Source: Gelidibacter pelagius
GTDB lineage: Bacteria > Bacteroidota > Bacteroidia > Flavobacteriales > Flavobacteriaceae
NCBI RefSeq assembly: GCF_017581925.1
Contig: NZ_JAGEVG010000008.1
Location: forward strand, 62,001-126,000
DNA length: 64,000 nucleotides
Direction of reading: 5' to 3'
Shown: positions 49,122-64,000 of the stretch, piece by piece
Layout: every line of letters begins with the position of its first letter
Numbering within the stretch: the stretch's first letter is position 1
Translations under genes and position numbers: made by a program
The notes under the pieces: generated by a model
Database searches by the model: none
Told to the model about the DNA's origin: nothing
What the model saw: only the letters and a program-made list of their open reading frames with translations

Positions 49122-49195
49122 GGCGAGGTAGCTCAGCTGGTTAGAGCGTCGGATTCATAACCCGGAGGTCAGGGGATCGTGCCCCCTTCTCGCTA
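49122..49195 (+). tRNA. tRNA-Met (CAT anticodon)
   Basis: Cloverleaf of 74 bases: acceptor GGCGAGG with TCTCGCT (G-T wobble at both ends) and discriminator A; D stem GCTC/GAGC; anticodon stem/loop TCGGA-TTCATAA-CCCGG (one A-C opposition next to the loop); T stem AGGGG/CCCCT. The T loop reads ATCGTGC rather than TTCGAnn, so the usual T54-A58 pair is swapped to A54-T58. CCA is not encoded. CAT anticodon means methionine (or tilS-modified isoleucine); three G-C pairs before the anticodon loop, as in initiators, are absent, so elongator Met is favoured. Confidence 0.93.
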
Positions 49196-49210
49196 CATTG
49201 TAAACGAAGG

Positions 49211-49864: not shown

Positions 49865-50026
49865 ATGCAATTAATAAATACAGAACACAGTTTTTCATTT
49901 TATAACAAACTACTATCAGCCAAAGAACCAGACAACGAATTTGATATCAATCAATTTACTGGCAGTAAAGGTTCAGGTTCCAATTTAAATCAAACTCAAT
50001 TTAGATATTTGAGAAAAGGCCTATAA
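49865..50026 (+). CDS. 53-residue ORF before GIY-YIG gene
   Basis: ATG at 49865 opens MQLINTEHSFSFYNKLLSAK..., 53 residues, hydrophilic, no domain recognised. It stops 41 bases before the ATG of the GIY-YIG gene on the same strand. It is a candidate small partner of that protein, but coding is only moderately supported. Confidence 0.45.
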   Translation: MQLINTEHSFSFYNKLLSAKEPDNEFDINQFTGSKGSGSNLNQTQFRYLRKGL

Positions 50027-51562: not shown

Positions 51563-52597
51563 ATGAAAAACCCACCATATGATCTAGGCGCCTCCAGTGA
51601 TCAATTTATTGCCCTTTTTTTAGTTCTTATATGTCTATTTGTAATACTTGTTTTTAGGAATTGGTACAACCTATTTAAAAAACGTAGTTTAAGAAAAGAA
51701 AATAGACGACTGACAGAACAGTTAAAAGCACATCAACGTGATATTTCGAACTTTAACATTCAAGTGAAAAAGACGAAGGCTATTGAAGAGCGACTTAAAT
51801 TCAGTCAAGCAGCAATTACTCAATTAGATAACGAGCTAAGAGCCTATAAGGAGAAATTCTATTCCACATTAAGCCAAAAAGAAAAAGAAATAGAAGAACA
51901 AAAGGACATTATTAATCATCAGAAAATAGCTTACGAACGTTATGTTAATTTTAAAAACGTTGAAACCAACAATACCAGACTTGGTGCACATTTTATTAAG
52001 AATGTGATAAGTCAGATTTATATTGATTTAGATACAGCAGAAAATAACCCTAAATCATTTTTCGGCATTTATTACAGTTTTAAAAATACAGAAAATAAGA
52101 TTCCCCCTCTGATCGCCTTAAAGCATATTTTTAAACTTTTAGACTACAATGTTCACGCTATAAATAAAGAACACATCAGTTTAGACGAGGAATGGAGACA
52201 TATTGAAATGTTTATGGAGTTAATTCAATATCTTAAACCAAATACGGACATCAAATTAGAAACCCAGATAAGTATAGAGCAAAAAAGACTTTTAAAAATA
52301 AAACCTACTTTATTTTTTCCATTTGTAGAAAATGCTCTAAAACATGGAAGCTTAAATAATGAGAACTCTTTTATACGAATTGTTTTAAAGGAAAATGAAG
52401 ACAAACAATTAATCTATTGCCTGGTGAATAGTGCTGAACAAAGAGGAGCTGGCGATAGTAAAGTCACACCAACTGCTAATTTTGGTTTAAATGCACTACA
52501 ACAGTTGCTAAATGCCTACTACCCTAATAGCAAATTAGAACACAAAATATTACCAAACAACCAATATCAATCTGAACTAACTTTAAACCTGAATTAA
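51563..52597 (+). CDS. LytS-type sensor histidine kinase
   Basis: Protein of 344 residues with one N-terminal membrane helix (FIALFLVLICLFVILVF, residues about 12-28), no extracellular sensor, then a long coiled coil (about 45-125). The kinase part is of the LytS/HPK10 type: phosphoacceptor H143 in LGAHFIKNVISQIY, and N box PFVENALKHGSLNNE near residue 255. It is a minimal relay kinase, as is common in flavobacterial LytTR systems, where signal comes from membrane or partner proteins. The regulator gene starts at its stop codon. Confidence 0.9.
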   Translation: MKNPPYDLGASSDQFIALFLVLICLFVILVFRNWYNLFKKRSLRKENRRLTEQLKAHQRDISNFNIQVKKTKAIEERLKFSQAAITQLDNELRAYKEKFYSTLSQKEKEIEEQKDIINHQKIAYERYVNFKNVETNNTRLGAHFIKNVISQIYIDLDTAENNPKSFFGIYYSFKNTENKIPPLIALKHIFKLLDYNVHAINKEHISLDEEWRHIEMFMELIQYLKPNTDIKLETQISIEQKRLLKIKPTLFFPFVENALKHGSLNNENSFIRIVLKENEDKQLIYCLVNSAEQRGAGDSKVTPTANFGLNALQQLLNAYYPNSKLEHKILPNNQYQSELTLNLN

Positions 52598-53356
52598 TTG
52601 ATACGTTATATTCTAGTAGACGACAATCCAAGTGTTTTACATTCTGTAAAAACAAAAATAGAAGCTTTACCGAAAGATTATGATCTGCAACATATAAAGA
52701 GCTATGACAGTTCTAAAAAAGCGTTTGAAGAAGTGAACGAGAGTAATTACGATTTATTGATCGTAGATTATGAAATGCCAGTGTATAATGGTCTTGAATT
52801 AGCTCGAAAAATTGGAAAGAACAAGAAAATTATCTTTTTAACCTCCACGACTGATAACGAAAAAAAAGTGATTAACACCCTTGATATTTCCGGATATTTA
52901 AGTAAACCATTTGACATAGAGGAATTTAAGTATATTATTAAACATAAAATTATCGGCAAAATAAATTCTTCCAAAGCATATTTAAAACCTCACACAATAA
53001 CCTTGAACATTGGCGCTAACAAAGATGTGCGTTTTCTAACGAATCAAGTGTATTACATTAGCAAATCATTAACTGATAATGGTGAACAGCCCATCAAAAA
53101 TCATGTACATTTATATGGGAAAAATGATGTTGTTTTATATGCGAACCTAAGGATTACTATAAAAGACCTTTATGAGAAATTAGCAGATTACAACTTTGAG
53201 AAGATAGATCAGAGTAATATAATTAACATGGATTATTTAAAAGAACGTGATAACATGCATATTAGACTACAGGATTGTAGAGAAAGCTTTGTAGTTACCT
53301 CTAAGCACAAACCTGGAATTGTGGCAAAATTAAGAGCTATACTAACGCAAAATTAA
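52598..53356 (+). CDS. LytTR-family response regulator
   Basis: Protein of 252 residues starting at TTG (MIRYILVDDNPSVLHSVKTK) right after the kinase stop. The receiver domain has D57 in LLIVDYEMP and K in GYLSKPFDIEEF. The C-terminal ~110 residues match LytTR: VYYISKSLTDNGEQPIKNHV, YANLRITIKDLYEKLADYNF and KIDQSNIINMDYLKER. LytTR domains bind DNA in tandem sites. Targets are unknown; the next genes on the other strand end at 53371, so this operon stops here. Confidence 0.92.
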   Translation: MIRYILVDDNPSVLHSVKTKIEALPKDYDLQHIKSYDSSKKAFEEVNESNYDLLIVDYEMPVYNGLELARKIGKNKKIIFLTSTTDNEKKVINTLDISGYLSKPFDIEEFKYIIKHKIIGKINSSKAYLKPHTITLNIGANKDVRFLTNQVYYISKSLTDNGEQPIKNHVHLYGKNDVVLYANLRITIKDLYEKLADYNFEKIDQSNIINMDYLKERDNMHIRLQDCRESFVVTSKHKPGIVAKLRAILTQN

Positions 53357-53370
53357 ATTAGTTTTAAGAA

Positions 53371-56337
53371 CTAATAATACTCTTTTATATAAGCACAAGC
53401 TCTTTCAAATAAGATCTGATCCTTATGCAGTTTGTACTTTAAAAGTGCCTTACGTAACGACTTTTGAACTTCACGCTCTCCAGAACTTGTCACTTGCCAA
53501 CCCGGAAAACGAACTATCCGCACAATGGCATCAATGTCTTCAACGATACGTTCTACTACGGCTGGTGTTTGGTCGGTTTTAAGCTCTAAGAACAATTCGG
53601 TCAATGCTGCTTTTGGTGTTCTTTCTATGAGAAGCTCTTCAAGCTCCTTCTCTGCCTCTACAGTTTGTTTGGCCAGTTTACAAAGTTCCTTAATAAATTC
53701 TATGGAAGTAATTAAGCCTTGTTCGGCTTGATTCCTTAAATCTTCAAGACGTTCACTTAGTGATTTAAATTTTGGATTTCCCGCGAATTTCTTGAAACGC
53801 TTTATTAATATCTTTTCAAGTTTTTTAACGCTCTGTGGATCTGGGTTGTTAAATATATCTTCAATTATATCAGCATCTAACCTGAATTCTTCAAGCTGAT
53901 GCACCTCTCCCACATGAATGTTATCGTGAATCAACTTTGTAGTTTGTGCACCCAATGAAAACCAAAGTAATTTCCCGATATTATCTGAAGCGGGCCTTAC
54001 GGATTCAAAGACTTGACTTAACCATTTATAATCCTCTTGGTAACTATTTAAAACGTTATCCGGTGATAGTGACTCCCATAATTTGGAAAGAAATTTATAA
54101 TCACTAGCAAAAGCATCCTTCTTTTTGTTATCACCTATTGCATTCTGGGCAAGTTCCAACCCTTCAAAACCACCTATGGCCCTATCTACACCTTCAAAAT
54201 GTGACAAAGTATCTTTCATGGCATCAGGTAATTTCTCCCTTAATTCTGATAGATTTGTAATAACTGTTTTAATACTTTCTTCATCAAATTGTAAAGCTTT
54301 AGCTGCATCATCAAAGACGCCAAAATAATCTACGATGCGACCAAAGGATTTTCCTTTATACAAGCGGTTTGTTCTACAGATGGCTTGCAAAAGTGTATGG
54401 TCTTTAATTGATTTATCTAAATACATAGTCTGCAAAATAGGCGCGTCAAATCCTGTCAATAATTTCGCGGTAACGATTATAAACTGTAAATCACCCAATG
54501 GATCATTAAATTCGTCTACAATTTTTTCTTGTTGTCCTTTATCAACAGCCCACTTTTGTTTAAACTCCAAAGTATCATTTGCTGAAGTTGAAATCACGAC
54601 GCGACTGGCATCTACAGGGAAGTATTTATCTAGCTCTTCTTTGTATTGAACACAAGCATATCTATCTGGTGTAACAATCATGGCTTTAAAACCATGTGGT
54701 TCTACTTTTTCCTTGAAATGAATAGCGATGTCCTTCACGATTTTATCGACACGCTCTGGTGACTTTAAAAACGCCGACATCTTTGCCGATTTCTTATTTA
54801 ATGCATCTGCTTCTTCATCTGTAAGTGCTGACGATTCTCTAAATTCCTCAAAAGCTTTATCAATTGTTTCTTTATCCACATGTACATCTACCAAACGGGG
54901 TTCAAAGTGTAATGGTAAAGTAGCATTATCCCTAATAGAGTCATGAAAGGTATAGCGCGACATGTAACCCCCTTTGTCTTCTTCAGCTCCAAATGCCCAA
55001 AAGGTATTCTTATCTGCTTTGTTGACTGGTGTTCCTGTTAATCCAAAAAGAAAAGCATTCGGCAATGCAGCTCTCATTTGTCGACCCAAATCACCTTCTT
55101 GTGTGCGGTGCGCTTCATCAACCAAAACAATAATATTGTCTCTGGTGTTCATGTTAGGTTTTGCATCCCTGAACTTAAAAATCATAGAAATGATAATCTT
55201 TCTGGTATCGTTTTCTAATAATTTTTGAAGCTGTTTGATATTATCGGTAGTCTCAACATTTGCAATATCTGCTGCATTGAACGTTCCTGTAATTTGTGTA
55301 TCTAAATCCGTTCGATCCACTAAGACAATTACCGTAGGACTTTTCAAGTCTTTTTCGCGCCTCAATTTTTGAGCGGCAAAAACCATTAATAACGATTTAC
55401 CAGACCCTTGAAAATGCCAAATCAAACCTTTTTTAATTTTACCCTCCTTAACACGTTCTACAATTTTATTGGCACCTTCATATTGTTGAAAACGCGGTAT
55501 AATTTTAATACGTTGCTTCTTATTATTAGTGGTGAAAAGTGAAAAATTCAAGAGTATATCCAATAAACGTCTGGGATGCATTAAATCTGATAACTCTTTA
55601 CCGATCTCACCTAAACCCAAACGCTTGGCTATGGCATCTTCATCATTCTCTAAGCGCCAAGGCGCCCAAAACTCTAAGGGTGTTCTAATAGCCCCATAAT
55701 AGAGCTCTTTCCCTTCCGTTGCAAAGGATAATATGTTAGGAACGAATAATTGAGAGATAGAGTTCTCATAAATATCATGAACCTCATAGGCACCATCCAG
55801 CCAACTGACCGATGGACGAATTGGGGTCTTTGCTTCCCCTATAACTACTGGGATTCCGTTTATAAATAAGACAATATCTGGTATTTTGGTCTCTCTGTGA
55901 TGAATTCTTAGTTGAGAAGTTGCAATAAAACTATTGTTCTTCAATTCTTCAAAGTCGATTAGCCTAATTGGCACATGTCGATTATTCTCACCAAAAGGCA
56001 TGGTTTTATCACCTTGTAACCATTGAAAGAACTCCTCATTGGCACGAACCAACCCAACTTGATGTACGGAAATTAGAATAGCCCGTAACTTATAAATTAC
56101 TTCATCAGCTAAATCGGGGTTTTGTGTGATTTCAGGGTTTAGCCGAATTAATGCTTCTTTTAATTTTGATTCAATCAACACCTCATTTACGGAACGTTGT
56201 AATTCTTGGGAAGATTTATATTTCCAAAACCTCGGATACGATGTTGAATCTTCAGATACTTCATTAGTATTTAAATTAACACCCGTAAGTTGTTTGATGA
56301 TGTAGTTTTCTACACTGTTTAGTTCGTTGAAGCTCAT
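53371..56337 (-). CDS. hsdR: Type I restriction endonuclease subunit HsdR
   Basis: Motor and nuclease subunit of a type I restriction system, 988 residues. The PD-(D/E)XK nuclease lies near 150-172: PDIVLFINGIPVVIGEAKTP, with D and ExK. The SF2 translocase has Walker A FQGSGKSLLM near 310, DEAH in IVLVDEAHRTQEGDLGRQ near 408 and LTGTPVNKADKNTFW near 432. Domain 2 shows TAKLLTGFDAPILQTMYLDK and the HAQ-type arginine finger region QAICRTNRLYKGKSFGRIVD. The C-terminus is helical. No hsdM or hsdS lies in the window; they may be beyond the right edge. It is the last gene of the leftward operon, 9 bases after the coiled-coil gene. Confidence 0.93.
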   Translation of the reverse strand: MSFNELNSVENYIIKQLTGVNLNTNEVSEDSTSYPRFWKYKSSQELQRSVNEVLIESKLKEALIRLNPEITQNPDLADEVIYKLRAILISVHQVGLVRANEEFFQWLQGDKTMPFGENNRHVPIRLIDFEELKNNSFIATSQLRIHHRETKIPDIVLFINGIPVVIGEAKTPIRPSVSWLDGAYEVHDIYENSISQLFVPNILSFATEGKELYYGAIRTPLEFWAPWRLENDEDAIAKRLGLGEIGKELSDLMHPRRLLDILLNFSLFTTNNKKQRIKIIPRFQQYEGANKIVERVKEGKIKKGLIWHFQGSGKSLLMVFAAQKLRREKDLKSPTVIVLVDRTDLDTQITGTFNAADIANVETTDNIKQLQKLLENDTRKIIISMIFKFRDAKPNMNTRDNIIVLVDEAHRTQEGDLGRQMRAALPNAFLFGLTGTPVNKADKNTFWAFGAEEDKGGYMSRYTFHDSIRDNATLPLHFEPRLVDVHVDKETIDKAFEEFRESSALTDEEADALNKKSAKMSAFLKSPERVDKIVKDIAIHFKEKVEPHGFKAMIVTPDRYACVQYKEELDKYFPVDASRVVISTSANDTLEFKQKWAVDKGQQEKIVDEFNDPLGDLQFIIVTAKLLTGFDAPILQTMYLDKSIKDHTLLQAICRTNRLYKGKSFGRIVDYFGVFDDAAKALQFDEESIKTVITNLSELREKLPDAMKDTLSHFEGVDRAIGGFEGLELAQNAIGDNKKKDAFASDYKFLSKLWESLSPDNVLNSYQEDYKWLSQVFESVRPASDNIGKLLWFSLGAQTTKLIHDNIHVGEVHQLEEFRLDADIIEDIFNNPDPQSVKKLEKILIKRFKKFAGNPKFKSLSERLEDLRNQAEQGLITSIEFIKELCKLAKQTVEAEKELEELLIERTPKAALTELFLELKTDQTPAVVERIVEDIDAIVRIVRFPGWQVTSSGEREVQKSLRKALLKYKLHKDQILFERACAYIKEYY

Positions 56338-56346
56338 ATTACATTT

Positions 56347-57018
56347 TTATAATAATTTATACATCATAAATCCAAAACTTACCACCGTAACTATAAGAAT
56401 AGATACAACAAATAGTAAAAGCTGATCTATTTTTTTCCTATTCATATCTAATTTGGAACTTAAGTTTACCATTTGCCTCAAAACTTCGTTTTCCTTCTCA
56501 TCGACTAATTGTAGTTGTTCTAATAATCTGCTTTGACTATCCGTTATTGATTTATTAAGTTTTTTAGTGTTAATATCAATTTCTCCGGAAGTTGATTTCG
56601 AAAAACGACTAAAATCCTCACTAACTACTTCTTTAAGGCTCTTTAGTTCAGCAGAATAGGTATCAACCTTTTTTTGAAACTTATCGAGAACTGAATCAAG
56701 AGTTTGATTAGTTGATTCCTCATAATTATTAGCTAAAGTTTCAAACTTATGGCTTTGGTCCGAAACATTGCTACTTAATGTTATTAATGCATCATTCAAA
56801 GACTTCTTTATAACTTCAAAGTCATTTTTCTTAGATTGATAATCATTTTCAATAGATGTCTTAAAAATTTGTACAGATTGTACAAAAGACTCAATTTCAT
56901 CAATTGTTTTTTTTGCGTTTTCGCTATTTTTCGATGTTATCTCGTTTATTGATTTTAAACGCTCAAGTTCATTTATTAGCGCTTCAAATTCTTCTTGTAA
57001 TTTTATAGTTTTAGCCAT
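56347..57018 (-). CDS. C-tail-anchored coiled-coil membrane protein
   Basis: Protein of 223 residues, almost entirely long coiled coil (residues about 1-195, e.g. EFEALINELERLKSINEIT and KYNDEE-like heptads LDSVLDKFQKKVDTYSAELK), ending in one transmembrane helix (LLLFVVSILIVTVVSFGFMM) with a two-residue tail. Topology implies a rod on the cytoplasmic side anchored by its C-terminus. No family recognised. Its ATG overlaps the RecQ-like stop codon (TAATG), so it is translationally coupled. A membrane anchor or length-sensor for the helicase complex is an inference. Confidence 0.85.
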   Translation of the reverse strand: MAKTIKLQEEFEALINELERLKSINEITSKNSENAKKTIDEIESFVQSVQIFKTSIENDYQSKKNDFEVIKKSLNDALITLSSNVSDQSHKFETLANNYEESTNQTLDSVLDKFQKKVDTYSAELKSLKEVVSEDFSRFSKSTSGEIDINTKKLNKSITDSQSRLLEQLQLVDEKENEVLRQMVNLSSKLDMNRKKIDQLLLFVVSILIVTVVSFGFMMYKLL

Positions 57019-60000
57019 TATTCTGTGATTTTATCTAGAAGTTCTTTTAATCTAAAATGTGTTCTGTTCACCAATAATTCAGAAGATAGTTCATTCATTA
57101 AAGTTTCAATTTCTGAATTAAAATCAAGGGTTTTTTTATTGAATAGATCAATTAAAGACATCACCTCCTCCCATGAGTCAATGCGCAACATACGCCTAAA
57201 TCCTGATCTATATAAATCAATTGCTGTAGCTACTAATGGCTTAGTATTAGCACTTTCTAAGGTATCTTCTTCCTTCAACTCCAAAGCAAATAAACTAAAG
57301 GAGGTTAATAAATCAACACTAGCATTATCCACCATGTTAATCCGTAAATTATCACAGGCACCTCTCAAGTGTTTGGCGTTATCAATCTGTCCTCCTAGCC
57401 CATCTGGTGGTTTATCAATAAAATTGATGTATTTTTTTACAATAGCACAATTTTCTTTAGTTCCTTTTTCAGTGTCGGCAGGCAGATAATCTTGGCGAGC
57501 ATATTTAGAAGTAAAGTATCTAATCATTCGATCACGAAATTCATCCTCCCCCTCACTTAAGTGAACCTTACACAATTCTTGCATATAATCTATTGAACGT
57601 TTTCTTTTGTCTGAAATCTCGCTTTCAATAAATTCAATTAACACATACAATACCTTAGTAAGTATAGAGTTTTCTTTGACTTTTCTAACTTTATTAAGCC
57701 ACAGCTTGGTGGTTTCTATTCCCAAGTATCTTCTTAAATAAGATTTAAAGTTGTTTCTATATTCTCTATCACTTTTTGCCTTAAAACGTACTTCAATAGA
57801 TTGTCCAACATAATCAATAACATAATCATCAATTATCCCTAAAATATTCAAACGATAAACAGCACGTTGAGTGTCCTGAGCATTCCTTATCCTTGAAAAA
57901 TTATCTTTCAAAAACTTTTCAGTATCGCTATTTGGAGAAAATTCCCGTTTTGCTACGCCATACTTATTGATTTGAAATTTATAATATTGATATCTAATAC
58001 TTTCTGAAAAATCATCTTTATCAGTACTAAAGTTATAAGCAGCTCGTATAATCCGCTCTTCGAAATCCTGATACCCAATTCCTTTAATAACTTCATTCAT
58101 TTTAGAAACTGTTCCATTTGTAAAACCTATTTTCAATCTATACTGATCATTTGTACCACTCTCAATAAGTGTTCTTATACCATCTGCTGTTTTAGTTTTA
58201 AAATAGCCTAAGTAGTCGTTATTCTCACAAGAATCTTTTAAGGTCTTTCTTGCAAATTCGAGTATCTCATTTGCTTTCTCAATATTAAAGTTTTGTGTGG
58301 CATCTGGATAACTGCGCAGATTCCTCTCCAAATCTAATAATCCAATTTTTACACGCACATCTGCGTTATCGTGCCAAGGCCCGTTTACATAAACATACCG
58401 ATCTTTATATAGATTCACCGATTTCACCTCTGGATATTTATCTGTAATCTGTTGCTTCAAAACATTTACGAAAAAGTTATCTTCATACTGAACTTCTTCT
58501 AAAAGTTCATCTATTATAAGTCTTTCTCGCTCTATACCCTTAAAGGCATTCTTATAAAAATCATAATTAGTTTCAACATCTGCGGGATGATACAGAATGG
58601 AACATAACGAAGGATTTCCATCTCGACCAGCTCGACCAGCTTCTTGATAGAAACTTTCTACAGAGTTAGGAAAAGAGTAATGTATCGAATAACGAATATT
58701 AGGCTTATCTATTCCCATTCCAAAAGCCTTAGTTGCTATCATTAAGTTGGCTTTGTTCTTAATAAAATCATCTTGATTACCATATGATTCTTCAGCTTCA
58801 GATTCCACTAAATTATCTTTGATAACATTATCATCTCCACCACCAAAAAAAGTTCTAATATCTAAAAATGACAAATCTTTAAGACCTCCACCAAAATTGT
58901 CTCTGCCATAAGCTAAATGCATTACTCCATTGGGCAGTTTAGTTGATTTTATTGGGCAAAAAATTACACCAGCATTTTTATATTCATTATTTGATTTTCC
59001 GAAAAAATCTAAATCTTCATTGATATATCCATATTGTTTTTCTAAAGCACGGATTCTATTAGGCATAGCCGTGATGAAATCTTTAATAACAGGATATTTA
59101 CTGAGCCCAAGTTTTCGTTCTCTCTCGTAAAATTCTAAACCGTTTGGAACTTCAGCTTTTATAGGAATAATATTAAAATTAAGCTCTGCTCTGTCAATGG
59201 ATTCTGCGGCTAAGCTAATTATGGCTTCTTCATTCAAGTCCAATTCTCGCTGTACATCAGCTAACACATCAAATGATGCTGTAGCCGTAAGTCCGAAAAT
59301 GGTAAGTTTACCTTTCTTGGCAGAGCAATGTCGTTTTAAATTTTCGGCCAAGTTTAAATACACGTGTCTAAAGTCATGGCCCCATTCAGATACACAGTGT
59401 GCTTCATCGATTACTGCATAACTGAAATACACATTTAAATCTCGACAACTTGATAATATCTGTCGGAAATTCTCCATTTGAAACCGTTCAGGAGAAACAA
59501 ATAGAATTAAATAATTTCCCTCTATAAGTTTTACCATACGCTCTTCGCGTTCTTCCTTAGTATTGAAAGAATTGATATAGCTTGCATTACTAATACCATT
59601 ATCAATCAATTTATCGTATTGGTCCTTCATTAAAGAGTTAATAGGATCCACCACCATGGTAACTCCTGGATGCAACAATGCACAAATTTGAAAAGTTAAA
59701 GACTTACCACCACCGGTAGGCAACAGGCCTATTACATCTTTACCAATTAGCGCTCTATTAATAATAGCCTCTTGGCCTGGCCTAAAATGAGCTTTTCTAA
59801 AAATATTTTGTAAGATATATTGTAAAGCGTCTTTCTGTTTCTGAGTGTAATATTCAAAACTATGTAATTCCCTACGCTTACCGTTTGTCATCTCTTTTTC
59901 CGTAATGACAACTTTTCCTAATTTTTTGTAATTAATTTGACGGTCTGTAAGAATCTTGAAATTTAAAGAAGATTTCTTCCCTTCTGTGAGGGAGGACAAT

Positions 60001-60674
60001 ACTATTGCATTTTCATTCTCGTCATTTATTGATATCAGTACTTCATTATTCAATTGATTCTTTCCTAAAAGTGGTATTTTAATCTCATCTTTATCAGATA
60101 AGTTATTCAACGCGCTGAACAGTTCATTTAAATCATCTTGTAATAAGCTATTTTCCTGATCAGTAAGTCCTTTTATTTTAAAAGAAGTCTCTACAGGATT
60201 TGACATAAGCACCAACAACATGGTTTTTTGAAGTTGGTTATATGTGATTCCCATTTTTAAACATTTGAAAATATTGAAAATGGAGTGATTTAGATCATAA
60301 ACCTGCTTTTCTTCTAGAAAACCAAATTGCTGCATTACCAAAGTAAGATCGGTCGTATTAACATTTTGATCCCAATTTAATTTCGATTTAATTTCTGGTC
60401 TCGAAAAGTTAAAAGGCTGGTGATCAGAAAAAAACCTATTAAGTAGATATGTACTTATTTTTAACGAAGCTCGTGTTACATCGCCCCTATTTAAAATGTT
60501 CCAACCTGTTTTAAGTAGAGGTGGTACTTCACTTTGATTTATATAATTTGGCGCATTACTAATTGAACACGAACTATTTTTCGTATAAAATTCTGCAACA
60601 TTTTCAGTACCTATAAGTGAGCTGAGGTATTGATTTAATTCATCTATATAAAAGGCTCCATTTATTACAGTCAT
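57018..60674 (-). CDS. Large RecQ-like helicase (1218 residues) of the accessory operon
   Basis: SF2 DNA helicase, twice the length of RecQ. Residues 1-~290 form an N-terminal domain of unknown type. The helicase core follows: FRPGQEAIINRAL (motif 0, ~300), GLLPTGGGKSLTFQ (Walker A, ~316), VIDEAHCVSEWGHDFRHVY (DEAH, ~422), GLTATASFDVL (~464), IATKAFGMGIDKPNIRYS (V, ~645) and QEAGRAGRDGNPS (VI, ~678). About 175 residues separate motifs III and V, roughly 60 more than in the housekeeping RecQ in this window; the insert includes the glycine-rich GRDNFGGGLKDLS. No CxxC zinc cluster typical of RecQ is visible after the core. Residues ~720-1218 are helical and unassigned. Fifty-eight bases separate it from the SF1 helicase gene. 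Confidence 0.9.
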   Translation of the reverse strand: MTVINGAFYIDELNQYLSSLIGTENVAEFYTKNSSCSISNAPNYINQSEVPPLLKTGWNILNRGDVTRASLKISTYLLNRFFSDHQPFNFSRPEIKSKLNWDQNVNTTDLTLVMQQFGFLEEKQVYDLNHSIFNIFKCLKMGITYNQLQKTMLLVLMSNPVETSFKIKGLTDQENSLLQDDLNELFSALNNLSDKDEIKIPLLGKNQLNNEVLISINDENENAIVLSSLTEGKKSSLNFKILTDRQINYKKLGKVVITEKEMTNGKRRELHSFEYYTQKQKDALQYILQNIFRKAHFRPGQEAIINRALIGKDVIGLLPTGGGKSLTFQICALLHPGVTMVVDPINSLMKDQYDKLIDNGISNASYINSFNTKEEREERMVKLIEGNYLILFVSPERFQMENFRQILSSCRDLNVYFSYAVIDEAHCVSEWGHDFRHVYLNLAENLKRHCSAKKGKLTIFGLTATASFDVLADVQRELDLNEEAIISLAAESIDRAELNFNIIPIKAEVPNGLEFYERERKLGLSKYPVIKDFITAMPNRIRALEKQYGYINEDLDFFGKSNNEYKNAGVIFCPIKSTKLPNGVMHLAYGRDNFGGGLKDLSFLDIRTFFGGGDDNVIKDNLVESEAEESYGNQDDFIKNKANLMIATKAFGMGIDKPNIRYSIHYSFPNSVESFYQEAGRAGRDGNPSLCSILYHPADVETNYDFYKNAFKGIERERLIIDELLEEVQYEDNFFVNVLKQQITDKYPEVKSVNLYKDRYVYVNGPWHDNADVRVKIGLLDLERNLRSYPDATQNFNIEKANEILEFARKTLKDSCENNDYLGYFKTKTADGIRTLIESGTNDQYRLKIGFTNGTVSKMNEVIKGIGYQDFEERIIRAAYNFSTDKDDFSESIRYQYYKFQINKYGVAKREFSPNSDTEKFLKDNFSRIRNAQDTQRAVYRLNILGIIDDYVIDYVGQSIEVRFKAKSDREYRNNFKSYLRRYLGIETTKLWLNKVRKVKENSILTKVLYVLIEFIESEISDKRKRSIDYMQELCKVHLSEGEDEFRDRMIRYFTSKYARQDYLPADTEKGTKENCAIVKKYINFIDKPPDGLGGQIDNAKHLRGACDNLRINMVDNASVDLLTSFSLFALELKEEDTLESANTKPLVATAIDLYRSGFRRMLRIDSWEEVMSLIDLFNKKTLDFNSEIETLMNELSSELLVNRTHFRLKELLDKITE

Positions 60675-60705
60675 AATTTAAATATATAACACCGGTTAGC
60701 TAAAT

Positions 60706-60719
60706 CCCAATGTATTGGG
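60706..60719 (-). promoter_or_regulatory. Small intercistronic hairpin between SF1 and RecQ-like genes
   Basis: CCCAAT-GT-ATTGGG is a perfect 6-bp inverted repeat in the only sizeable gap (58 bases) of the operon. No T run follows, so an RNA-processing or expression-tuning site is more likely than a terminator. Confidence 0.35.
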
Positions 60720-60732
60720 CTATGTTAATAAT

Positions 60733-62553
60733 CTACCAATTATCCTCTTTCAATACCTCTTCGATTTTACTGGATAGTTTAAAATAATTTTTGAATGTAT
60801 CTAAACTTGGCTTCAGTATTTCAAATTCAGGTAACTCCACAAGTTCCTCATCAATTATATCAAACACTTTATAATTTGCAATGACAATACATTTTATCAT
60901 ACCTCTTGTAATAGCTACATTCAAACGATTTGGACTGTAAAAAAAGTCCAGCCTTCTTTTAGACTCTAAAGGATGAGAGTTAGACATACTGTAAATAATA
61001 TAATCTCTCTCTTGTCCTTGCATTCTGTCTACAGTATCAATAAAAATAGGCTCTGCATCAATATTTTGAACAAATTTATTCAGGGCTTTTTTAATTTCTC
61101 TAACTTGTGCTCTATATGGAGTTAATACCCCAATATTCTTTAAATCAACACCATCATTTATTAAATCATTAACTATTTCAGCAACAATATTAGCCTCATG
61201 TTGAGACCTTCCTTGAGAATCAAAAATTTTATGTAAATACAATACCTTCGAATCTGGGTGATTAATTACTTTTGAAAACCCATTGCTTTTTATATAAAAT
61301 GACTCAAAAGGACGAGCAGACGTTAGATTATTATTATAAAATAAAGTATTAGGTATCCTGATAAGTTTATCGTTTAATCTGTATGAAATATTTAATAATG
61401 ACTTTTCATTTGGATACAACCTTACTAATCTACTAAAAACAGATTCAGAGAACATTGAAACTCCCGTACCAGATGGCATAATTGGATCAAGCTGTTGGTG
61501 GTCACCAACAAAAATAAATTTATCTGATTTTGACATTACAGAAACTGCCATAGGAATACTCATTTGTGCAGCTTCATCTATAATAGCAACATCAAACTCC
61601 CAATTGTTTAAGCGTTTAGAAGCTGGGTAACACATCGAGTATGGCGTTCCACCTATAACTATGCCTTCCTTGCTTACATGAGTGTTAAACGCGTATTTAT
61701 CCATAGGCAATCTAATCATTCTCGTCAAATTTTCATTTCCTATAACCTCAGCGGCTTGGTACTTTTCTCCTATTTTGACAACTTTAGATTTATCTTTTAT
61801 TTTGTTAGATATTGCGTTTAAACAATTATTGATGGCTGTATGTGTTGGTGCCGATACAAATACTTTTTTTCCTGCATCAACTAAAAGTTTAGCTATATGT
61901 GCTATAGTTTCTGTTTTACCTGTACCTGGTGGACCTTGTATCAAATGAAAATTTGGAGCACAAATAGCTCTGTTTACCGCATTATTCTGAGAGTCATTTA
62001 ATTGGATATAATTAAATGTGTTACTACTTAAATTTCTTAATTCTCCCTTGAGTAAATTCTCAATTTTGTTAAGACGCAAACTGTCATTCTCTAAATTGCC
62101 AGCTGTTGCTGATAATAATTTTAACGTGATATCTGTTTTTACAATATTAATTTCCCAGTGATTCCGATTGTAATTTTCTGAATCTATATAACAGGATTTA
62201 ACATCGAAATCATTTGGTGCTAGTATGAAATTATCAAGAGAGTCTTCAATAATCTCCATTTTGAATTTTATATTACCATTACTAAGAACCACTAAGCCAC
62301 CTTCTCTAAACTTAGATATGTTATTATCACAGTAAATTTTAGCAGACTGAATGAACTTTATAGGATAATTTAATTGCTGACACCATTGGTTAGGTGCCTG
62401 ATCAAAAAAACTAAACACAACTTTTAGGTTGGTCATAGTTGTTCCCTTTGCCACACGTTCATCTAAAGGCAAGTTTATTTGCTCTTCATAAGATTCATCA
62501 TCTTTATTTTGCTGGATTGAAATCGCTTGCCTAAACTCTGTTAATACTGACAT
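60733..62553 (-). CDS. SF1 (UPF1/Dna2-like) helicase
   Basis: Superfamily 1 helicase of 606 residues. Residues 1-~180 are a beta-rich N-terminal part. Core motifs: Q-like NAVNRAICAPNFHLIQGPP then Walker A GPPGTGKTETIAH (~206), VAIIDEAAQMSIPMAVSVM (motif II DEAA, ~325), FVGDHQQLDPIMPSGTG (III, ~350), LNISYRLNDKLIRIPNTLFY (IV), DTVDRMQGQERDYIIYSMS (V, ~510) and RRLDFFYSPNRLNVAITRGM (VI, ~540). The DEAA and LNVAITR forms are those of the UPF1/Dna2/Smubp2 branch, which moves 5' to 3'. It has no nuclease of its own; the upstream gene (2-base gap) supplies one. Confidence 0.92.
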   Translation of the reverse strand: MSVLTEFRQAISIQQNKDDESYEEQINLPLDERVAKGTTMTNLKVVFSFFDQAPNQWCQQLNYPIKFIQSAKIYCDNNISKFREGGLVVLSNGNIKFKMEIIEDSLDNFILAPNDFDVKSCYIDSENYNRNHWEINIVKTDITLKLLSATAGNLENDSLRLNKIENLLKGELRNLSSNTFNYIQLNDSQNNAVNRAICAPNFHLIQGPPGTGKTETIAHIAKLLVDAGKKVFVSAPTHTAINNCLNAISNKIKDKSKVVKIGEKYQAAEVIGNENLTRMIRLPMDKYAFNTHVSKEGIVIGGTPYSMCYPASKRLNNWEFDVAIIDEAAQMSIPMAVSVMSKSDKFIFVGDHQQLDPIMPSGTGVSMFSESVFSRLVRLYPNEKSLLNISYRLNDKLIRIPNTLFYNNNLTSARPFESFYIKSNGFSKVINHPDSKVLYLHKIFDSQGRSQHEANIVAEIVNDLINDGVDLKNIGVLTPYRAQVREIKKALNKFVQNIDAEPIFIDTVDRMQGQERDYIIYSMSNSHPLESKRRLDFFYSPNRLNVAITRGMIKCIVIANYKVFDIIDEELVELPEFEILKPSLDTFKNYFKLSSKIEEVLKEDNW

Positions 62554-62555
62554 AT

Positions 62556-64000
62556 TTATATTTTATGGTTAATGGAATTTAATATTATAGCTACTTCTTT
62601 ATCCATATTTACAAGGCTAACCCTATGATAATCCTCATAGTTTTCATGTAGCACTATTAAATTCATAGATGAGATGGGCATATTGTACTTTTTTTGAAGT
62701 ATGTGTTTATAAATATTTTGTTGTAAAGCATATTTATAATAGCTCGAGTTATCTATATGGCTTAAGTCTGACATAGCATATCCGTAACCGTATTTTTTCG
62801 GATATCCATCTACCACAAGTTTCTTACTACGTTTCCAATCTGCAATTAGATACTCCTCTTTGTTCGGCTTTTTAAAAAGCGCATCTACGGTTCCGGCAAC
62901 ATTAAATTCATCCAGCAGAATTCTTTTTTCTGCCTCAACAAACTCAAATCCCTTTTCTACAACAATTTCTTCATAAAATTTTTTGAATAATCTAAACTCC
63001 TTAGAGTTGGCATCATGTTTTTCGCCTTTTAAGAAGTTCTCAATTTGTTCATGCATAAAAGTTCCCCTTTCTGCAGCCTCATCCCTCATTTTAAGAAATT
63101 CATCTAAAACCTCTTCCTCTGTTCTTTCTTCCCTTTTGGCTTTAACTTCAATAAACCTATCCATATCAAATGGAAAGAATCTATCAATTACTGTAGTCAC
63201 TGATATATATTCGGCATTCCCAGTCTCGTCTTTTGGATGATGGTATTTATGAGATTCATCTTCAAAAGCAATATTTTCTTGAAGTGTAGCGGATTTAAAT
63301 TTTTTTGTTCTTTCTAATTGATTCTCAATACCATCTATATCATATATATCTACTAAAATTTCTGAAGATCTATTTTGTTTCTCAAATTTCTCAATCCCTA
63401 AATACCGTTCTCTATAATTGTCTTTTTGCCATCTTACTGCTTGTTGATAAGACCATTGTGGCTCAGAGGCACAAGTGGAGAGTTGTTCTAGTTTATAACT
63501 GCGTATGGAATTTATGACATCCGTTATAAATGCAATACATTCCTGTTCTTGAAGATGTACTTGGCGCTCAGTGAATCTAATAACTACCCATCCACTTTCT
63601 GTAAAAAACAAATCTCTAGTATCATCTTTTTCTTCCTCATGAGTTGGGAAACGATAGTACCCATCATAAGGCTCGTCTATCTCAATATCGATATATAGAT
63701 TTATATTTTTATCTATTAAAACAATGTCTGGTTCATAAGGTTTGTTGTAAAATGGAATTACCATATGTAAATCCATTGCAATTTCCATATCATGAATTTT
63801 TGCACAAATAGCCTCATAAAAATCTTGCTCTTTGTATCCTTTTCCCAGAGCTCTACCTTTTCTAGGTAATTTAAGAAATGACTCCTCTTTAGGCATTTTT
63901 ACAACAGGATACTCATAAACTTCTCCTTGTTCAAAAAATTGATTAGGATAGAAATTAATTTTTAGATTATCTGTTTGATTTGGATTTTTTTCAGAATGTA
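62556..64000 (-). CDS. Two-domain PD-(D/E)XK nuclease protein (5' end beyond window)
   Basis: The reading frame is open to the right edge; it continues upstream of the ATG at 63896 with protein-like residues (NFYPNQFFEQGEVYEYPVVK), so the true start is probably outside and at least 480 residues are present. N-terminal domain (about 20-130 from the internal ATG): PDIVLIDKN, then IDIEIDEPYDG and GWVVIRFTERQV, a DUF559/Vsr-like restriction fold. C-terminal domain (about 215-446): GTFMHEQIENF, NVAGTVDALF, EYLIADWKRSKK and YALQQNIYKHIL match the RecB/Cas4 nuclease motifs (H, D, DWK, QxxxY). It has no cysteines, so no Cas4/Dna2-type iron-sulfur cluster. Coupled to the SF1 helicase gene by a 2-base gap. 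Confidence 0.85.
   Translation of the reverse strand, partial: HSEKNPNQTDNLKINFYPNQFFEQGEVYEYPVVKMPKEESFLKLPRKGRALGKGYKEQDFYEAICAKIHDMEIAMDLHMVIPFYNKPYEPDIVLIDKNINLYIDIEIDEPYDGYYRFPTHEEEKDDTRDLFFTESGWVVIRFTERQVHLQEQECIAFITDVINSIRSYKLEQLSTCASEPQWSYQQAVRWQKDNYRERYLGIEKFEKQNRSSEILVDIYDIDGIENQLERTKKFKSATLQENIAFEDESHKYHHPKDETGNAEYISVTTVIDRFFPFDMDRFIEVKAKREERTEEEVLDEFLKMRDEAAERGTFMHEQIENFLKGEKHDANSKEFRLFKKFYEEIVVEKGFEFVEAEKRILLDEFNVAGTVDALFKKPNKEEYLIADWKRSKKLVVDGYPKKYGYGYAMSDLSHIDNSSYYKYALQQNIYKHILQKKYNMPISSMNLIVLHENYEDYHRVSLVNMDKEVAIILNSINHKI

Follow-up and report, generated by a model that had tools for sequence, protein, structure and literature searches.

Dna2 holds nuclease and helicase in one polypeptide, and an Fe-S cluster is present in Dna2, AddB and Cas4. 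SF1 enzymes of the UPF1/Dna2 branch move 5' to 3', while nuclease domains of the RecB/MGME1 type cut single strands and follow a PD-(D/E)XK pattern consisting of H, D, D/E-x-K and QxxxY. Among helicase-containing defence systems, Mokosh carries a kinase. In the RqlHI system, RqlI restrains RqlH (PMC4670107). Type I restriction-modification (RM) operons with embedded two-gene systems are also already known: TgvAB of VPI-2 is a two-gene defence system embedded in such an operon (PMC11411939), and DarTG2 of the EPEC RRDM island sits exactly between hsdS and hsdR (PMC12255303). The helicase pairs described here, which are likewise two-gene units inside a type I RM operon, would be further cases, and differ from TgvAB and DarTG2 in their cargo, a helicase-nuclease pair and a RecQ-TM pair, in the presence of two different HsdM genes, and in their Bacteroidota host. 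Our main reading of the locus, to which we assign a probability of roughly 0.7, is that it is a type I RM operon on a horizontally variable, tRNA-adjacent island, carrying two separable helicase-based modules that are probably anti-phage.

The window, a 64-kb stretch of Gelidibacter pelagius DNA, was subjected to an ORF check, which located five minus-strand ORFs at the coordinates, and with the intergenic gaps of 2, 58, -1 and 9 bases, that a preliminary description had given. The end of the window interrupts the gene for the dual nuclease-like protein, hereafter NUC, and the same-strand run continues beyond it into the next stretch of the contig (L002, in which position p equals window-equivalent 61999 + p). 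The features are as follows.

49122-49196, plus strand: tRNA-Met, left edge of the island
53371-56337, minus strand: HsdR (P0001, 988 aa), the endonuclease/translocase subunit of type I restriction, from Pfam/TIGR and PADLOC matches
56347-57018, minus strand: coiled-coil-looking protein with a C-terminal transmembrane (TM) segment (P0002, 223 aa), which comes second in the RecQ pair
57018-60674, minus strand: RecQ-like helicase (P0003, 1218 aa), which comes first in the RecQ pair
60733-62553, minus strand: UPF1/Dna2-branch SF1 helicase (P0004, 606 aa), which comes second in the NUC-SF1 pair
62556-64000, minus strand: NUC, dual nuclease-like protein (P0005, 480 of 585 aa in the window), first gene of the NUC-SF1 pair
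62556-64313 in window-equivalent positions (L002:557-2314), minus strand: whole NUC protein (P0006, 585 aa)
62559-63215, minus strand: NUC C-terminal RecB/MGME1-like PD-(D/E)XK domain, about P0005 residues 262-480
63504-63911, minus strand: NUC N-terminal DUF559/Vsr-like domain, about P0005 residues 30-165

Beyond NUC lie six more genes on the same strand, spaced by -1 to 76 bases. They encode a 117-aa protein, a protein weakly resembling GIY-YIG (E 0.0012, sub-cutoff), HsdS, HsdM2, a protein matched by GmrSD_N (7.8e-32), and HsdM1. The whole locus thus comprises 11 same-strand genes, which their spacing suggests are carried on a single transcript: the two HsdM genes, the GmrSD_N protein, HsdS, the weak GIY-YIG protein, the 117-aa protein, NUC, SF1, the RecQ-like protein, the coiled-coil/TM protein and HsdR. 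As shown by matches to HsdM_N/N6_Mtase, Methylase_S and HSDR_N, and to hsdR above cutoff, HsdM, HsdS and HsdR are present in one locus, and HsdR, previously treated as a separate partner of the helicases and nuclease, belongs instead as a subunit to a full type I RM system. HsdR contains HSDR_N and SWI2_SNF2 domains and matches TIGR00348 hsdR at E 1.7e-164 and the PADLOC model REase_I at 3.8e-131. HsdM1 and HsdM2 are 51% identical and both contain motif I and NPPF/NPPY, and the motifs of the RM core are intact for its predicted methylation and restriction activities. Two different HsdM genes (L002:7991-9511 and L002:4442-5908) stand alongside one HsdS, and both are also found in L030, L033, L061, L181-L184 and L188. 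Profile and PDB matches bore out the initial calls for HsdR and the two helicases: the SF1 protein contains AAA_11/AAA_12 and best matches NAM7/UPF1 (8.3e-33) and DNA2 (1e-30) in the PDB, while the RecQ-like protein contains DEAD and Helicase_C in Pfam, with E. coli RecQ as its best PDB match (3.1e-59) and no RQC or HRDC domain reported. The motifs of both helicases and of HsdR are intact.

The locus lies on an island of approximately 24.4 kb. Similarity to the best-matching congener, G008, ends at 49203, seven bases past the tRNA-Met, and resumes at L002:11622 (window-equivalent 73621), while the corresponding G008 interval at the same tRNA is approximately 1.5 kb long and lacks the RM locus. 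No NUC was found in any of the eight congeners searched. Elsewhere on the island, a short ORF at 49865-50026 corresponds to the beginning of a gene for a 500-aa protein in congener G005 (L209) and is likely a remnant of earlier island content, and the interval 51563-53356, facing HsdR, encodes a 344-aa protein resembling a histidine kinase, a reading without Pfam support, and a LytTR-domain response regulator. A 61-base remnant at L002:16682-16742 shares 84% identity with the 3' end of hsdS, which lies about 13.4 kb away at L002:3256-3316.

The Pfam matches of NUC were all below cutoff (PDDEXK_1, 0.0023; DUF559, 0.0011), and no match was obtained with PADLOC at 0.001 (P0005) or NCBIfam at 0.01 (P0006). 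An AlphaFold2 model of NUC (pLDDT 91.8) was used as a Foldseek query, and returned MGME1 first (9.2e-8), then AdnAB, RecE and Cas4, with Dna2 at rank 22 (3.7e-3); by HMM, MGME1 was matched at E 0.24. The C-terminal domain fits the RecB/MGME1-type PD-(D/E)XK pattern, its H, D, D-x-K and QxxxY residues being present in 51 of 51 aligned relatives, in which H316, E357, D372, D387, K389, Q426 and Y430 (P0005 numbering) are invariant. In the N-terminal domain, E106 and D108 are found in 51 of 51 aligned rows and D91 in 48. When modelled alone (pLDDT 88.0), this domain had no PDB match at E 0.001 in Foldseek, the DUF559-type protein 3hrl ranking fourth (E 0.065, TMt 0.77); from this fold likeness, the sub-cutoff Pfam match to DUF559, and a motif order that we take to resemble that of DUF559/Vsr, we call the domain DUF559/Vsr-like. 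Across the 51 rows, no column of the C-terminal domain exceeds 51% cysteine, and the single column above 51% (98%) sits in the N-terminal domain. An Fe-S cluster such as that of Dna2, AddB and Cas4 is therefore not expected in NUC.

These results bear on the parallel with Dna2 that had been drawn for this locus. The parallel holds for the branch of the SF1 helicase, and the NUC nuclease does belong to the broad RecB/Cas4 group. It fails for the closer identity of the nuclease, whose C-terminal domain is nearer in fold to MGME1 than to Dna2, lacks the Fe-S cysteine set, and is joined to an extra N-terminal nuclease-like domain; nuclease and helicase are, moreover, encoded by two genes. MGME1 is the best fold match of the C-terminal domain, yet NUC differs from it in being bacterial, in its additional nuclease-like domain and in being paired with a helicase.

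A scan of one genome per species identified 345 relatives of NUC, and the best 80 of the 345 were examined as loci, some of them on short contigs where an absence says little. In 35 of the 80 loci, and at the focal locus, an SF1 gene comes no more than two genes after NUC on its strand. The gap is at most 20 bases in 27 of the 35, and the two are separate genes in every case. A NUC tree of 81 rows (quick search, midpoint root) contained one clade of 34 rows with an SH-aLRT of 100, in which SF1 follows in 33, the exception being L053; among the remaining 47 rows SF1 was present in three, all from Hymenobacter (L076, L084, L088), and missing from 44. The claim that a RecB-family-type nuclease and an SF1 helicase form neighbouring genes thus extends to a conserved pair. 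NUC and SF1 divergence correlated with an r of 0.95 over 33 pairs, a value that includes the effect of shared host ancestry and was reached in 0 of 999 permutations. In the stretches examined, hsd genes at 45% identity or more lie near NUC in only 7 of 81 rows (L029, L030, L031, L033, L038, L061 and the focal locus), indicating that the NUC-SF1 pair is independent of RM. Any match to NUC was found in 10 of 395 genomes of the phylum. There was no match in 50,697 phage records, and plasmids yielded partial matches alone, none covering 80%; viral contigs contained four NUC loci, one of which (L116) has the NUC-SF1 pair. By hydropathy, a TM segment is present in the N-terminal region of NUC in 6 of 35 SF1-paired versus 30 of 45 unpaired proteins, counts in which several N-termini are cut or have an unsure start.

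At L050:5844-8450, on the same contig as L021, NUC has a long N-terminal extension with a signal-peptide-like start, a TM segment and a vWA-like reading, and SF1 then follows, while in L046 and L049 the usual N-terminal region is replaced by one reading like an HU/IHF-type DNA-binding domain. In L146, an SF1 relative (30%) adjoins a type I RM operon that has no NUC, and relatives in L147 and L148 have no NUC match in the stretch examined. The solo NUC genes of marine Flavobacteriales (L093, L097-L099, L102) occur in a common gene order, which points to vertical inheritance.

The rumen Bacteroidales loci (L051-L056 and L058-L060) have NUC-SF1 behind a shared upstream gene in nine of nine cases, L053 being the member of this group in which NUC is present without SF1, and their downstream genes are presumably those for EF-P, LpxD and GyrA. 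The EPD motif of the N-terminal domain is absent from all nine by a scripted motif test, and D91 is replaced by A in the three rumen loci within alignment A3. In this group NUC-SF1 looks to be vertically inherited and perhaps has a housekeeping role, which speaks against an exclusively defensive function. This fixed locus, together with the nearest fold being that of a mitochondrial DNA maintenance exonuclease, is what recommends the idea that NUC-SF1 is a DNA-repair helicase-nuclease, acting in resection or flap processing, that hitch-hikes in RM operons. The patchy spread of NUC in the phylum, its absence from all eight congeners, the island location and the defence-gene neighbours argue against such a role, and we regard it as improbable.

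Those neighbours were assessed in a PADLOC scan (E 1e-15) around 18 NUC-SF1 loci that belong neither to RM operons nor to the rumen group, comparing 86 proteins within 3 kb with 86 of 100 proteins further out. Among the matches listed, the near set contained RT_UG19 (two proteins), WYL (two), PsyrT, PsyrA, MkoA, AbiEi, AbiEii and another reverse transcriptase (RT), and the far, control set RT models only. The near set matched 104 PADLOC families versus 44 for the far set, with the first 25 of each listed, in a single control draw and as counts of models, of which one RT can match many; the enrichment of defence genes around NUC-SF1 is thus suggestive. In L034 and L035 an RT, probably PADLOC UG19, and a 211-aa protein lie directly upstream of NUC-SF1.

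A closer association with restriction is seen among the nearest relatives of the focal locus. NUC-SF1 is present in all five RM operons of this kind traced through to HsdR (focal, L029, L030, L033 and L061), the HsdR proteins of the latter four being 79-82% identical to that of the focal locus. In the focal NUC subclade, six of seven rows lie inside RM operons, L032 being outside, with NUC-SF1 consistently located between HsdS and HsdR. It is possible, if rather unlikely, that NUC-SF1 alone is a working accessory of this RM subtype that chews HsdR-made ends, with RecQ-TM as an unrelated passenger. While the constancy of the subclade fits such a role, no RM genes lie near L032 or near most members of the 34-row clade, and other operons of the dual-HsdM type manage without NUC-SF1: both NUC and SF1 are absent from 11 of 11 operon stretches with HsdR 53-67% identical to that of the focal locus, four of which are short (L185, L186, L187 and L189), and five of the 11 contain both HsdM genes. 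The same slots in those operons are filled by other genes, for example for an AAA_13 ATPase, GNAT and AAA_17.

The second pair has a distribution of its own. A RecQ-like match at E 1e-100 or better was found in 7 of 395 genomes of the phylum, the focal genome included, and the next same-strand gene encodes a protein of 163-292 aa with a C-terminal hydrophobic segment in 11 of 11 testable loci, namely the seven genomes, L030 and three plasmids (Salinibacter, Rhodothermus and Klebsiella), with G568 left out because its contig ends 180 bases after the RecQ-like gene. A second Rhodothermus plasmid (H23) was also among the matches and is not part of this count. For P0002 the hydropathy reaches 2.78 at residue 199. 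Judged by eye the partners are coiled-coil-looking; by phmmer they split into one group of the focal protein, L030, L120 and L121 and another of L122-L125, with no cross-matches at E 0.01, a grouping that does not establish common descent of all the membrane partners. The RecQ proteins of the pair also differ in their N-terminal parts. No NUC match was found in the L120-L125 stretches. On the Klebsiella plasmid (L215:2699-8786), a DprA-annotated gene is followed directly by genes for a RecQ-family protein of 1558 aa and a TM protein of 163 aa.

The distribution of the two pairs does not favour the three-part nuclease-SF1-RecQ cassette originally proposed. NUC-SF1 and RecQ-TM each recur, NUC-SF1 mostly outside restriction operons, but the three genes stand together only at the focal locus and in L030, the one locus of the 80 to repeat the full gene set, and the RecQ pair is absent from L029, L033 and L061, three of the five related operons. 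We therefore reject a conserved cassette, and RecQ is not a conserved partner of NUC-SF1 as it would be in a Dna2-Sgs1/BLM arrangement. The associated mechanism, in which HsdR cuts and NUC, SF1 and RecQ then jointly resect the ends in Dna2/Sgs1 fashion and so degrade foreign DNA, draws on the placement of all three activities on one strand between HsdS and HsdR in the focal locus and L030, on the correct branches of both helicases, and on the constancy of NUC-SF1 in the five operons. Given that each pair is found without the other and without RM, and that the nuclease is closer to MGME1, we consider this mechanism very improbable.

Comparison with named systems gave likenesses for single proteins, so that the novelty first suggested applies to the pairs as pairs and not to their members. 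MkoA of Mokosh is the best PADLOC match of SF1 (6.5e-55), but P0004 has no reported kinase domain and no Mko partner was present among the other seven proteins scanned. The RecQ-like protein has DpdF as its best PADLOC match (8e-90), although its NCBIfam DpdF score is far below cutoff (160 versus 550 bits) and the rest of the Dpd set is absent from the operon. Like PsyrTA and RqlHI, the pair has a RecQ-family helicase, the PsyrT model matches P0003 at 2.3e-62, and the Klebsiella version of the pair has a DprA-annotated gene ahead of it; unlike them, P0003 has no reported PRTase domain, the operon lacks a DprA-like gene, and the partner is a TM protein. As for Zorya, with its ZorA/ZorB membrane motor, P0002 matches ZorA models at 9.8e-5 over its coil-like part only, with no ZorB among the proteins scanned. 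On this domain, partner, cutoff and cysteine evidence, assignment to Dna2, Mokosh, PsyrTA, Dpd or Zorya was rejected. Neither NUC-SF1 nor RecQ-TM was found as a named system in the defence libraries searched or the open-access literature, and within these the pairs are unnamed.

Taking the locus as an RM operon with two separable modules, both pairs most likely act against invading DNA. The simplest model for NUC-SF1 would be helicase-driven degradation of foreign DNA, in which SF1 would unwind or track along DNA 5' to 3', the MGME1/RecB-like domain of NUC would digest the single strand thus laid bare, and the DUF559/Vsr-like domain may give access by nicking or cutting. The RM core would supply self/non-self marking and HsdR double-strand cuts, the ends of which would be good substrates for NUC-SF1. 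As RM genes are missing from the stretches examined around most NUC-SF1 pairs, DNA ends must also arise elsewhere. RecQ and its membrane-anchored partner would form a separate DNA-processing module, with a helicase related in sequence to DpdF and PsyrT/RqlH, that may act at the membrane, or the partner may hold the helicase in check, as RqlI does with RqlH. A bolder version, which we hold to be unlikely, is that the locus contains two unnamed immune modules: NUC-SF1, which in one lineage has become a permanent component of a type I RM system with two HsdM proteins, destroying DNA from HsdR-made ends, and a membrane-tethered RecQ meeting DNA on entry.

What appeared as one striking but rare arrangement becomes two gene pairs that are widespread and open to testing. 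The first, NUC-SF1, would be a compact helicase-nuclease, within a NUC family of two branches, one paired with the helicase and mostly soluble, the other solo and mostly membrane-anchored, and RecQ-TM would be a membrane-tethered RecQ module that spans phyla, from Bacteroidota to a Klebsiella plasmid. Looking for defence genes embedded in type I RM operons, of which this locus would provide further examples, is a practical route to new systems.
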